Shown here: piece by piece, positions 119 to 3,105 of the stretch
Position numbering within the stretch: the first letter of the stretch is position 1
Layout of the letters: the number at the start of each line of letters is the position of its first letter
Assembly: GCF_000346615.1 (NCBI RefSeq)
Contig: NZ_ANNU01000038.1
Span: 1-64,000, forward strand
Direction: 5' to 3'
Source of the DNA: Nafulsella turpanensis ZLM-10
GTDB lineage: Bacteria; Bacteroidota; Bacteroidia; Cytophagales; Cyclobacteriaceae
Length of the DNA stretch: 64,000 bases
Position numbers and translations under genes: made by a program
Notes under the pieces: generated by a model
The model's input: the letters and a program-made list of their open reading frames with translations, nothing else
What the model was told of the DNA's origin: nothing
Database searches by the model: none

Positions 119-385
119 TTATTCTTTCAGGAGTAGCTTCGGGGTGGCTTTGTCCTGCAAGCTTAATCCCCACTTAGCCAGTATCGGTTCTTCCAGTGAT
201 TTTTCACGGTACTCATCGGGCGTCATAATTGGGATACCGTATACGATGGGGTAATATCGGCGGCACTCCGCACAGCTTAGAAGGCCTTCTACGATATCTC
301 CGTTTTCGTCTTTTACAAAAGGCCGGAAGGCCAGCTCGTGTTTATCTACGGGACAGCATAGATTATCTAAAAGTGATACTTTCAT
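119..385 (-). CDS. Trm112-like zinc-binding protein
   Basis: A small protein (88 aa) of the Trm112/UPF0434 type. Visible zinc-ligand candidates are Cys10/Cys11 and the Cys38-x-x-Cys41 pair, followed by the family's typical YPIVYGIPIM strand. In eukaryotes and archaea Trm112 proteins bind and stabilise class I SAM methyltransferases that act on tRNA, rRNA or release factors. Bacterial versions are poorly understood. The last 30 or so residues go beyond the short bacterial form. It is the last visible gene of the riboswitch-headed operon and starts 9 nt after the ThiE-like gene. A methyltransferase heads the same operon, so I infer it may be the partner of that enzyme. The family call is fairly safe; the role is inference. 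Confidence 0.8.
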   Translation of the reverse strand: MKVSLLDNLCCPVDKHELAFRPFVKDENGDIVEGLLSCAECRRYYPIVYGIPIMTPDEYREKSLEEPILAKWGLSLQDKATPKLLLKE

Positions 386-394
386 TTGATTTCT

Positions 395-1042
395 TTAGTT
401 TAGTTTGTTTAAAGCATCCTGATAGGAAGCAGCAGCCTGCCGGGAAGATTCAGCATTCAGTATACCTGAAATAACCGCGACTCCGTTAAAATCCAGCTCC
501 TGAAGGTGAGACATATTGTCCACGCTGATTCCACCGGAAAGGAAAAGCGGCATTTGGGTTATTTCCCTGGCTTTCCTGATGGTTTCCGGCTTTACAATTT
601 CGCAGCTGGCAACGGAGGAGGAAGGAAAGACGGAGCAAAAAGAAACATAATCCACCCTGTTTTCCTCGGCCCAGTAAATAGGGGCCAGGTTATTGCTGCA
701 GGTAATACCTGCCATAAACCTCCTCCCAATCTCCTGTTTTATGCGCTCGTAATTTTCAGGAATGGCATCAAAATGTACGCCATCCAGGGAAGTGCCCTTC
801 AGCAGCTCCCATTCTTCGTTGATCAAAACAGGCACCTGGTAAGCGGAGGCAAGTTTGATTATGGGCCCGATAAGTTCCCTCTTTTCGGTCAGGCTAAACG
901 TATCCACCCAGTTATTCCATATCTGCAGCACCGCTATCCCTCCCTCCAGGGCCTGCTCCAGCTTTTCCAGCAGAACCGGCTTTTCAAGAGCGGGATTCAG
1001 CACCAGGTAAATGCCTCCGGTAATCTTCTTCCCTCTTTGCAT
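395..1042 (-). CDS. ThiE/TenI-like protein with divergent active site
   Basis: A TIM-barrel protein (215 aa) of the thiamine phosphate synthase/TenI family. Recognisable landmarks are GGIAVLQ (34-40), DGVH (87-90), the DYVSF strand (131-135) and the phosphate-binding SGGI (169-172). Canonical ThiE joins HMP-pyrophosphate to thiazole phosphate. Several usual catalytic positions differ here: the expected QLREK is QIWNN (40-44), the IND motif is INEE (74-77), and the GPVFPTxTK loop is CSVFPSSSV (136-144). The fold and thiamine regulation are well supported, but ordinary ThiE chemistry is doubtful. It lies third in the TPP-riboswitch operon, 78 nt after the PurM-like gene and 9 nt before the Trm112-like gene. 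Automatic pipelines would probably call it thiE. Confidence 0.8.
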   Translation of the reverse strand: MQRGKKITGGIYLVLNPALEKPVLLEKLEQALEGGIAVLQIWNNWVDTFSLTEKRELIGPIIKLASAYQVPVLINEEWELLKGTSLDGVHFDAIPENYERIKQEIGRRFMAGITCSNNLAPIYWAEENRVDYVSFCSVFPSSSVASCEIVKPETIRKAREITQMPLFLSGGISVDNMSHLQELDFNGVAVISGILNAESSRQAAASYQDALNKLN

Positions 1043-1120
1043 CGGTAATTTTTTAGCGTTGAAAGATCTCCATTATCGCCTATTCCTTTTTAAGCCAACA
1101 GGTGTAGCAGCGGCCTTTAT

Positions 1121-2185
1121 TTACTTCATACCGGCTTTCATGGCTTTAAAAAAGGCTTCCCAGTAAGGGTCCTTCCCATCAAAGAAAAGATGTTTCTCTT
1201 CCTCATTTTCAACAATGCGGAAACCTTCCTGCCGGTCGGTCATTTCGCCCACTACCGTAGCTTTGATGGACTTGCTTTGAAGGTGCGTAACCAGTTCCTG
1301 CTCCCTGCCTTTCCTAACGGCCATAATCATGGAACCCGCCCCTACACAAAAGCGGTGATCAATGCCAAACAGCCGGGTAATCCGCCGCTGAGCTTCTCCC
1401 ACCGGCAGCTTATCGTTGTGGATGAGGAAACCACAGCCGGAGGCCTGTGCCATTTCGATAATAGCCCCCACTACGCCTCCTTCGGTTGCATCATGCATGG
1501 CTTTTAACTCCTCCCGGTTCCGGAGTAGTTCTGTCGCACGGAGGGCATCCTGCAGGGAAGAGGTCTGGTAGAAATTCTCACAGCCCCTCTCAAACACTTC
1601 TTTCCCTAGCTTATTTTTTACCGTTTCCGGAAAGCTCATGGCCAGAATGGAGGAGGAAGCTAAAGCGGTTTCTTTGGTAACCACAATTACATCTCCGGGC
1701 GCGGCACAATTGCTCGTAATAATTTCGTCTTTAGGAGCCGTCAGAAACATGGTTCCCCCTCCTGAAATGGTCGAATCCTGGCCTTCGGCCTGTCCTGTAT
1801 GCCCACCGGTGATAGCTACCCCGATTTCTTCACAAAACTCATGGATGTACCTCCAGTATTCTTTAAATGCCGCTAAAGAAAGGCTGGTGGGCAGGTTGAG
1901 CACAAACTGGGCATACATAGGCGCAAAGCCGGTTGTAGCCATATCGTTCGCCAGCAGATGAACCGAAAGCCAGGCCGATTCCCTGAGCCCCAGGGAAGGA
2001 ATAAGGGACAGCGGATCGCTGGACACAGCCATGCCCATCCCATTTCCCAAATCAATAACGGCCGTATCTACTCCAAAGCGGGGACCTGTCAGCACTTCCT
2101 TTCTGCTGTACCCGCATTGCGGAAGCAGCACTTCCTTAAAGGTTCCGCTGCCTATTTTTCCTGAATTGTCTTCGAAAGCACTCAT
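1121..2185 (-). CDS. AIR synthase (PurM/HypE/ThiL superfamily) related protein
   Basis: A protein (354 aa) with the two-domain PurM/HypE/SelD/ThiL fold, a family that uses ATP to activate or phosphorylate small molecules. Landmarks are GVDTAV (38-43, matching GDDAAV of HypE and ThiL), SSDPLS (55-60), NDMATTG (80-86), GGHTGQ (127-132) and DATEGG (232-237, compare DPTRGG of HypE). The HypE C-terminal Cys tail (PRYC) is absent, since the protein ends AMKAGMK, so it is not a hydrogenase maturation factor. In this operon a ThiL-like kinase or another ATP-dependent step on a thiamine-related metabolite is plausible. Its ATG overlaps the upstream methyltransferase stop as ATGA, which points to translational coupling. 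Confidence 0.85.
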   Translation of the reverse strand: MSAFEDNSGKIGSGTFKEVLLPQCGYSRKEVLTGPRFGVDTAVIDLGNGMGMAVSSDPLSLIPSLGLRESAWLSVHLLANDMATTGFAPMYAQFVLNLPTSLSLAAFKEYWRYIHEFCEEIGVAITGGHTGQAEGQDSTISGGGTMFLTAPKDEIITSNCAAPGDVIVVTKETALASSSILAMSFPETVKNKLGKEVFERGCENFYQTSSLQDALRATELLRNREELKAMHDATEGGVVGAIIEMAQASGCGFLIHNDKLPVGEAQRRITRLFGIDHRFCVGAGSMIMAVRKGREQELVTHLQSKSIKATVVGEMTDRQEGFRIVENEEEKHLFFDGKDPYWEAFFKAMKAGMK

Positions 2186-2910
2186 GAATCCACATCATTC
2201 AGCCGCACATGTAAACCAAAAAAATCGCCATAGGGCATTCCCCACTGCTGCACCGGGAACCATTTGGGTAGACCGGTGGCCTTCCACTCCACGGTGTAAT
2301 CTCTTCCCTGCAGGGCTTCCTGGATGACGGCAATTAATTTCTTTGGCGTATAGAAAGTAGCGGTTACGTAAAAAGGATTTTTGCCGAACATTTCCTGAAT
2401 CCTCCTGCGGGCAACTTTCGGGGAATTCCTGTTCATCATGCCAAACACAATGCCGTACTTCCCTACACGAACAGCCTCCCTGATTACCTTTACCGGGTCT
2501 TTATAGTATTCGAAGGTGGTAATAAAGGCAAGTGCATCGAAGGTATGATCTTTAAAGGGCATGTGGTGAGAATCGGCCAGGACAAGATCTCCATCGAAAA
2601 GGTGAGCTCCCTGCCCCAGCATAAAAGGAGAAATATCGCCGCCGCTGGCTTCAATGCCTATTTCATGCCACCAGCGGGTAAAGCGGGTGGTTCCGCAACC
2701 AAATTCCAGCAGGGTCTTTACCCGGGTGTCTTTCTTTATAAGCTGGCCGATAACTTTCTTTTGCCAGATTTCGGCCCGCTTGTAGCGGCCTTCGTACCAC
2801 AGCTCATAGGTATCGGTGTGGTCCCTGTTAAAAAACCATTCTTCACGCCCCTGCCACTTACGGAGGTTTTGGGTAACAAGGTCGAATTTCTTTTGCTCAA
2901 TATTGCTCAT
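2182..2910 (-). CDS. class I SAM-dependent methyltransferase, first gene of TPP-riboswitch operon
   Basis: A protein (242 aa) with a clear class I methyltransferase core: motif I LLEFGCGTTRF (67-77), acidic residue of motif II at GGDIS (90-94), LADSHHMPF (111-119) and DALAFITTFEYY (125-136). The general architecture resembles UbiE/BioC-type enzymes, but the substrate cannot be read from the sequence. The C-terminal third, rich in Trp and aromatic residues (LPKWFPVQQWGMPYG), is probably a substrate lid. It is the first gene after the TPP riboswitch and is coupled to the next gene by an ATGA overlap. A Trm112-like gene at the end of the operon suggests a possible activator. It could act on a thiamine precursor, or on tRNA or protein. 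Confidence 0.85.
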   Translation of the reverse strand: MSNIEQKKFDLVTQNLRKWQGREEWFFNRDHTDTYELWYEGRYKRAEIWQKKVIGQLIKKDTRVKTLLEFGCGTTRFTRWWHEIGIEASGGDISPFMLGQGAHLFDGDLVLADSHHMPFKDHTFDALAFITTFEYYKDPVKVIREAVRVGKYGIVFGMMNRNSPKVARRRIQEMFGKNPFYVTATFYTPKKLIAVIQEALQGRDYTVEWKATGLPKWFPVQQWGMPYGDFFGLHVRLNDVDS

Positions 2911-2927
2911 TGTCCATTATTTAAAAC

Positions 2928-2968
2928 AAAAAATGCCACAGCCCGGATCCAGCAGACAGGCAATGGCA
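2928..2968 (-). terminator. terminator-like hairpin between TPP riboswitch and first gene
   Basis: On the minus strand TGCCA (2968-2964) can pair with TGGCA (2938-2934), with further GCC/GGC pairs inside, and six T residues follow (2933-2928). It lies between the riboswitch and the methyltransferase start. That is where an intrinsic terminator would sit if the riboswitch works by transcription attenuation. Pairing is imperfect, so confidence is moderate. Confidence 0.45.
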
Positions 2969-3002
2969 CTTACGCATTAAATAACAACTAATGTGCTAAG
3001 CA

Positions 3003-3102
3003 ATTTTGCATTTCCTACGCTGGTATTATCCAGATCAGGTTGCGGGTATAATCTCAGCCTCCCATTTGGTCTAATACCAATTGTTAAGCACCCCGTGCAA
3101 CA
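3003..3102 (-). promoter_or_regulatory. TPP riboswitch (THI element)
   Basis: Read on the minus strand this has the near-invariant THI-box pieces in the right order: GGGGTGC, then GGCTGAGA, ACCCGCAACCTGATCTGGAT, AATACCAGCG and TAGGAAA. A closing P1 stem forms between TTGCA (3100-3096) and TGCAA (3010-3006). These are the signature strings of the thiamine pyrophosphate aptamer. It sits 92 nt upstream of the methyltransferase start, so TPP should repress the four-gene operon. Confidence 0.95.
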
Positions 3103-3105
3103 GTA

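Follow-up and report, generated by a model that had tools for sequence, protein, structure and literature searches.

A four-gene cassette behind a TPP riboswitch in Bacteroidota and its possible role in thiamine salvage or repair

We analyzed the first 64,000 nucleotides (forward strand, positions 1 to 64,000; hereafter the window) of contig NZ_ANNU01000038.1 from Nafulsella turpanensis ZLM-10, whose genome is 4.8 Mb. Four genes at one edge of the window follow a thiamine pyrophosphate (TPP) riboswitch on the minus strand, and the original prediction held that they form a single transcript encoding an undescribed, thiamine-linked route. The window begins at the contig end; therefore, nothing below base 1 is visible. 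The cassette and its leader comprise the following features, in the direction of transcription.

2994..3105, minus strand: TPP riboswitch aptamer (THI element); cmscan match to RF00059, 63.6 bits, gathering score 54.3, E-value 3.8e-10
2928..2976 (approximate), minus strand: terminator-like hairpin followed by T6, between the aptamer and gene 1; putative function as a transcriptional OFF switch
2182..2910, minus strand: gene 1, class I S-adenosylmethionine (SAM)-dependent methyltransferase, 242 amino acids; PF08241 (Methyltransf_11), 56 bits
1121..2185, minus strand: gene 2, protein of the PurM/aminoimidazole ribonucleotide (AIR)-synthase superfamily (PurM-like protein), from a separate clade, 354 amino acids; AIRS PF00586, 46.2 bits, and AIRS_C PF02769, 76.9 bits
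395..1042, minus strand: gene 3, ThiE/TenI-fold protein (ThiE-like protein) without the residues for hydroxymethylpyrimidine pyrophosphate (HMP-PP) and Mg, 215 amino acids; TMP-TENI PF02581, 99.9 bits
119..385, minus strand: gene 4, Trm112-like protein, 88 amino acids; Trm112p PF03966, 36.8 bits

All Pfam matches of the four proteins lie above the gathering scores. The aptamer likewise exceeds its gathering score as a covariance-model match, which bears out the predicted TPP aptamer ahead of the four genes. The claim that overlaps and 9-nucleotide spacing mark one transcript holds for two of the three junctions, namely the 4-nucleotide overlap of the methyltransferase and PurM-like genes (2182-2185) and the 9 nucleotides between the ThiE-like and Trm112-like genes (386-394), but not for the PurM-like/ThiE-like junction, where there is a 78-nucleotide gap (1043-1120). 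Among relatives of the locus, where the counts depend on our choice of start codons, the spacing at the three junctions in gene order was -4 or -1 in 45/75, 50/75 and 33/76 cases, and the genes overlapped or lay within 12 nucleotides of each other in 70/75, 71/75 and 65/76.

Conservation of the cassette was assessed in a sample of 198 Bacteroidota genomes and in a profile scan of 84,980 species genomes. Six sampled genomes besides the window's own carry a close orthologue of the PurM-like protein (51-70% identical; next matches at most 29%), and all seven have the same four-gene order. The profile scan, made with the methyltransferase, gave 179 relatives, and among the best 80 of these the four genes occur in the same order in 78 loci, the other two being cut by contig ends; a stricter extraction that required full-length open reading frames (ORFs) recovered all four genes in 72/80. 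By record titles, all 80 come from Bacteroidota, including Pontibacter, Cyclobacterium, Runella, Emticicia, Chitinophaga, Mucilaginibacter, Sphingobacterium, Chryseobacterium, Salegentibacter, Arenibacter, Sunxiuqinia and Balneolaceae. The nearest named relatives of the locus are Pontibacter species, with methyltransferases up to 92% identical. Other gene families each appear in at most 21 of the 80 neighborhoods, the commonest of them on either strand. This constancy of order rules out chance neighbors as well as a strain-specific set, which the original prediction had named as its refutation: the cassette is widely conserved in Bacteroidota. The methyltransferase and the Trm112-like protein, which the original prediction regarded as misfits in a thiamine context, are constant members, and of the four proteins the methyltransferase has diverged least (median identity between pairs 76%, against 54% for the PurM-like, 50% for the Trm112-like and 43% for the ThiE-like protein).

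Beyond complete cassettes, a scan of viral contigs with the PurM-like profile found no relative. Plasmid relatives of the methyltransferase amounted to seven records, at most 33% identical, and the one examined had no cassette; plasmid relatives of the ThiE-like protein amounted to 12 records, at most 30.4% identical. Arenibacter arenosicollis carries the cassette twice, on separate contigs (loci L103 and L134), each copy with its own TPP riboswitch.

The riboswitch accompanies the genes throughout. A covariance model built from six cassette aptamers and run over 86 loci (1.56 Mb) placed a TPP aptamer immediately before the methyltransferase gene, on the same strand as the cassette, in 86/86; these loci had been picked by protein and not by RNA, and since five of them supplied the model and two more are copies of those, 79 are independent. 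The same 1.56 Mb held two further matches only, at 39.8 and 17 bits. The RF00059 gathering score was passed by seven of the eight lowest-scoring loci (two tied), which were the seven run, at 57.5-72.5 bits. The analysis also covered 54 whole cassette genomes, consisting of 47 genomes from the 80 named loci (isolates favored; locus L114 left out) and the seven of the phylum sample. The cassette site, with places matched by us, exceeded the Rfam gathering score in 53/54 of them. Among the seven sampled genomes it did so in six, and the seventh (G069) scored 47.8 bits in Rfam, below the cut-off, and reached 77.4 bits under the model built from cassette aptamers. A search by strict TPP letter pattern had found the aptamer in only part of the 80 loci, a count that is void because the covariance model found it in all loci. 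Looked for together behind a TPP aptamer, as the original prediction proposed, the four families gave conserved order in 78/80 and an aptamer in 86/86. The order, the taxonomic spread and the aptamer together support a conserved, thiamine-linked unit of a candidate undescribed route and, with it, the original prediction in part.

In the window, a script found a hairpin of -20.5 kcal/mol followed by T6 between the aptamer and the methyltransferase start. The predicted fold of the leader has a helix in the same stretch (z -2.05; 5/200 shuffles as good), and the hairpin is absent from the list of a simple consensus terminator scan. The script missed the aptamer end in 37/79 sequences and was used for the window only; in 23 of the remaining 42 sequences it found a hairpin at least as stable as -6 kcal/mol. 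A hairpin and T6 in this position suggest an OFF switch acting by early termination. Control by TPP is predicted from the aptamer, and the direction of the switch presumed from the hairpin. Genes whose products raise TPP are usually repressed by it.

The ThiE-like protein misses the ThiE equivalog cut-off (TIGR00693, 92.7 vs 145.1 bits) and that of TenI thiazole tautomerase (PRK07695, 42.2 vs 251 bits). ThiG makes the substrate of TenI, and full-length ThiG is absent in 53/54 cassette genomes. The structural model (predicted local distance difference test, pLDDT, 96) has ThiE as its nearest fold, with a template modeling score of 0.85 to PDB entry 2tps. Residues were counted over 65 ThiE-like and 62 PurM-like sequences that we chose from the loci, the former mapped onto Bacillus subtilis ThiE, whose R59, K61, D93, D112 and K159 we take to be the HMP-PP/Mg2+ residues. 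R59, K61, D112 and K159 are kept in none of the 65 proteins and D93 in four; the R59 position is Trp in 63/65 and Tyr in 2/65, and the K61 position is never Lys, with one Arg. Of the other positions compared, Q57 (65/65) and N92 (64/65) are kept and the S130 position is Thr in 65/65. The thiazole-phosphate residues persist, with T156 as Ser/Thr in 65/65, T158 as Ser/Thr in 64/65, G188 in 65/65 and S209 in 64/65. Two cysteines that are new relative to ThiE, C136 and C147, are invariant in the 65 sequences. As a control, three ThiE proteins that stand beside ThiC and ThiD in cassette genomes keep Q-x-R-x-K, N-D, D112 and K159 in a joint alignment, and second ThiE-family proteins of genomes G229 and G244, which lack R59 and K159, are unlike both groups. 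Judged by these residues, the thiazole-phosphate half of the ThiE site is kept and the HMP-diphosphate/Mg2+ half is gone. The label "divergent ThiE" in the original prediction was therefore too mild. The ThiE-like protein is probably not a thiamine monophosphate (TMP) synthase.

The gene content of cassette genomes points the same way. ThiC is present in 3/54 (0/7 sampled, 3/47 others). ThiD spans its profile in 3/54, the same three that have ThiC, at 139, 139 and 302 bits, of which only the last exceeds the curated cut-off (205 bits); some ThiD match occurs in 44/54, and those other than the three are partial, score at most 64 bits and were taken as other kinases of the fold. Therefore, ThiC and ThiD cannot supply HMP-PP in 51/54 genomes, and since this agrees with the lost site, the ThiE-like protein probably does not use HMP-PP. 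Full-length ThiG is found in 1/54; 30/54 pass the Pfam cut-off, 29 of these by short stretches. A TMP-TENI match over the cut-off occurs in 54/54 when the cassette protein is included, and outside the cassette full-length matches are confined to the three ThiC genomes and to G229 and G244. Genome G221 also has a TenI-like protein and a partial TMP-TENI protein, and G233 a fragment. The cassette is thus not an ordinary thiamine synthesis operon, given the scarcity of ThiC and full-length ThiG and a ThiE-like protein without HMP-PP residues. Thiamine pyrophosphokinase (PF04263) occurs in 14/54 cassette genomes and is missing from the window's own.

Cassette bacteria probably import thiamine or its derivatives, because 16 of the 20 examined TPP sites outside the cassette precede a receptor-sized ORF (799-843 amino acids, TonB-receptor-like by size and start, with Pfam run on the receptor of the window genome only). 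Three others precede a PnuT-like ORF of about 200 amino acids, and one gave no clear assignment. The frequency of receptor-like genes behind TPP sites tells against a simple replacement of synthesis by the cassette. Further observations concern these TPP sites. A second site in the window genome (G000; L003, 8689-13144, contig 5; 37.4 bits, below the cut-off) is followed by the genes for a TonB receptor and a DUF6687 protein and by a 210-amino-acid ORF for which no significant family or PDB match was found. Similarly starting ORFs (207 and 190 amino acids) occur in G241 (L190, behind the receptor) and G244 (L202); by eye there is a resemblance to a divergent thiamine pyrophosphokinase. In G235 (L206, 246-3865), a receptor-like ORF comes before an ORF that by eye is DUF6687-like. 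The window genome has the same arrangement, suggestive of a part for DUF6687 in thiamine uptake or use. A PnuC/PnuT-family transporter and an AAA_28 (NadR-like) kinase adjoin a TPP riboswitch in G000 (L003, 7474-8627) or follow one in G235 (L189), Pfam having been run on the window genome's pair only; both genomes lack the PF04263 pyrophosphokinase, and the kinase might supply ThiL with TMP by phosphorylating thiamine. In two Chryseobacterium genomes (L191, L192), a TPP site is followed by a PnuT-like ORF and then by an ORF of 342-363 amino acids that by eye resembles an acyl-CoA dehydrogenase.

The PurM-like protein falls below the curated cut-offs of all 18 NCBIfam models that it matched (thiL, hypE, selD and purM included), among them ThiL (TIGR01379, 73.3 vs 184.15 bits), HypE (TIGR02124, 77 vs 251.6) and SelD (TIGR00476, 54 vs 125). 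Foldseek matches of its model (pLDDT 92.8) were led by HypE, then ThiL and SelD. In a 37-sequence tree, which left out SelD and PurM and drew a program warning of long branches, the PurM-like proteins formed a clade (99/98) with haloarchaeal "AIR synthase family protein" as sister (97/83), apart from Bacteroidota HypE and ThiL. The "PurM/ThiL" assignment of the original prediction thus stands at the superfamily level and no further, as the protein belongs to a separate clade next to haloarchaeal proteins and a true ThiL (329.9 bits, TIGR01379) is encoded elsewhere in the genome. D40, D57, D81, D232, G9-K10 and G127-G128-H129 are invariant in 62/62 PurM-like sequences, and the four aspartates align with the ATP/metal site of the superfamily. 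On this tree the nearest known relatives of the PurM-like protein are haloarchaeal. A tblastn search of plasmids gave relatives in 70 records (20 listed and seven examined, one of the seven without annotation); the haloarchaeal ones are ~27-33% identical, with E-values down to 1e-49. On three Haloarcula plasmids (L193, L194, L198), the relative is divergent from two genes, one annotated as thiamine-binding protein and the other as thiamine ABC substrate-binding protein.

The methyltransferase belongs to class I of the SAM-dependent enzymes (PF08241 cut-off 21.2 bits; motif I EFGCGTTRF) and lies far under every named NCBIfam cut-off; the six sampled orthologues are 72-83% identical to it. Its weak PDB matches include Bud23 (6.9e-5), which is a Trm112 partner. 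The Trm112-like protein passes PF03966 (cut-off 22 bits) and misses the archaeal equivalog NF038101 (67.5 vs 77 bits). Their shared operon suggests that the two proteins pair.

Our tentative reading, which we put somewhat short of an even chance, is that the cassette is a module under TPP repression for the salvage or repair of a thiamine-phosphate-like compound, delivering its product to ThiL. It best accommodates the switch, the folds typical of thiamine enzymes, the lack of synthesis genes and the remodeled ThiE site, and it draws further support from the probable import of thiamine-like compounds and from the thiamine-related neighbors of the Haloarcula relatives. The riboswitch, the gene order, its conservation, the co-inheritance of the four genes, the residue losses and the lack of ThiC, ThiD and ThiG in most cassette genomes are observed; the class of substrate, the order of steps, the pairing of the methyltransferase with Trm112 and the direction of the switch are parts that we infer. 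The four genes would act as one metabolic unit, on when TPP is scarce, returning an imported or damaged compound with a thiamine (probably TMP) skeleton to the pool that ThiL turns into TPP. We propose that the ThiE-like protein would bind a joined TMP-like molecule and not two halves, because the thiazole-phosphate site is kept and the HMP-diphosphate/Mg site is not; new residues, above all C136 and C147, would take part. Through its four invariant aspartates, the PurM-like protein may spend ATP on phosphorylation or dehydration of the compound, and the methyltransferase, activated by the Trm112-like protein, would make some SAM-dependent change. A more specific version is ATP-driven repair of an opened or oxidized thiazolium ring. 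The cysteine pair would reduce or hold ring-opened TMP, the PurM-like protein would re-close the ring by AIR-synthase chemistry, with phosphorylation of the formamide oxygen and closure of the five-membered ring by the internal thiol, and the methyltransferase-Trm112 pair would add a SAM-dependent step. As a joint claim, which in its wider form covers any wholly undescribed route to TPP, we judge this unlikely.

Several observations weigh against salvage or repair, or discount the support for it. Three cassette genomes also have ThiC, ThiD and ThiE, so the cassette is not simply a substitute for them. The absence of ThiC from sampled cassette genomes (0/7, against 67/191 non-cassette genomes, 67/198 overall) is weak once kinship is counted. 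Retention of ThiL over the cut-off, in 7/7 sampled cassette genomes, is too common (148/198 overall) to count as evidence for a TMP product and offers weak support. The divergence matrices of the four proteins correlate pairwise at r = 0.65-0.80 (77 loci; best of 999 shuffles per pair at most 0.14; two of the 86 loci, L071 = L035 and L120 = L037, left out as duplicate contigs), but common ancestry of the host genomes accounts for part of this. The three Haloarcula plasmids have one common neighborhood and count as one event, and the relatives examined from Halobacterium, Haloferax and Acaryochloris adjoin other genes. Finally, salvage or repair predicts no methyltransferase.

Among the alternatives, moiety salvage with a new joining step survives best, and we consider it improbable. 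A pyrimidine (HMP or a derivative) would be activated without ThiD or HMP-PP, perhaps by ATP-dependent phosphorylation and/or methylation of a leaving group, and the ThiE-like protein would join it to thiazole phosphate via a covalent cysteine; thiaminase I works through such an intermediate. The ThiE fold with its retained thiazole-phosphate residues, the new invariant cysteines and the lack of full-length ThiD in 51/54 genomes are consistent with this scheme, and a methyl group could in principle create the leaving group, but the role given to the methyltransferase is speculative, and the genomes that keep ThiC, ThiD and ThiE as well sit poorly with it. A slimmer chance attaches to a modified thiamine or other TPP-related product, methylated for example, made when thiamine is scarce: the cassette opens with the gene for a SAM methyltransferase, which is also its best-conserved member, yet repression by TPP is typical of genes that raise TPP, and we know of no methylated or otherwise modified thiamine product of this kind. 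Slimmer again is the case for an alternative de novo synthesis replacing ThiC, ThiG and ThiE. In its favor, the majority of cassette genomes have no ThiC, no full-length ThiG, no ThiD and no second ThiE-family protein, and all seven sampled ones keep ThiL; however, it is not evident how four proteins of these folds would build both rings, receptor-like genes under TPP control are frequent, and known genes coexist with the cassette, as in G221 (locus L089), which has ThiC, ThiD, ThiE and ThiG. Least probable is a thiamine-starvation response in which a Trm112-activated methyltransferase modifies RNA or protein with the other two genes as accessories, for although known Trm112 partners (Bud23, Trm9, Mtq2) methylate tRNA, rRNA or release factors and the methyltransferase is very highly conserved with a weak match to Bud23, half of the cassette's genes encode thiamine-type folds and stand beside it in 78/80 loci.

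Marine and soil communities are shaped by the exchange of thiamine. Bacteroidota that lack ThiC are easily classed as simple thiamine auxotrophs, and a four-gene unit under riboswitch control in several lineages of the phylum means that this classification may overlook a route. General models call the cassette ThiE-like proteins thiamine phosphate synthase, an activity that they probably lack. As far as we know, the cassette is also a rare case of a bacterial Trm112-like protein tied to one methyltransferase in what appears to be small-molecule metabolism.

Among known systems, a close parallel lies in the TPP-riboswitch thiamine operons of Bacteroidetes, thiSEGCHF-tenI, OMthi and pnuT-tnr3, which a survey of thiamine genes in gut Bacteroidetes (PMC5613172) names along with a THI4-like enzyme. 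These operons share the riboswitch class and phylum, with ThiE/TenI-fold genes inside a biosynthesis operon; the cassette is without ThiC, ThiG, ThiH, ThiS and ThiF and adds a methyltransferase, a PurM-like and a Trm112-like protein. The word methyltransferase is absent from that paper, and the four-gene set from the text consulted. Searches of an open-access library gave no description of the gene set, and earlier notice in subscription papers or regulon databases is possible.

At the level of single proteins, the ThiE-like protein shares its fold and thiazole-phosphate residues with ThiE (PDB 2tps, 1g4t, 3o15), but has lost the HMP-PP/Mg2+ residues, has gained C136 and C147 and scores below the TIGR00693 cut-off. 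The PurM-like protein shares the fold of the HypE/ThiL/SelD/PurM superfamily; it has GGH where ThiL has GGD, and the members shown have no C-terminal Cys, whereas the two HypE proteins shown end in LPRIC. With its haloarchaeal sister clade it has in common the N-terminal GKI, GHT and HDATE and the C-terminal DPxW, but in the five annotated records examined no methyltransferase, ThiE-like or Trm112 gene adjoins the haloarchaeal relatives. Trm112-dependent methyltransferases likewise combine a methyltransferase, here one with a weak match to Bud23, with a Trm112-like protein, here in one operon; those known act on RNA or protein.

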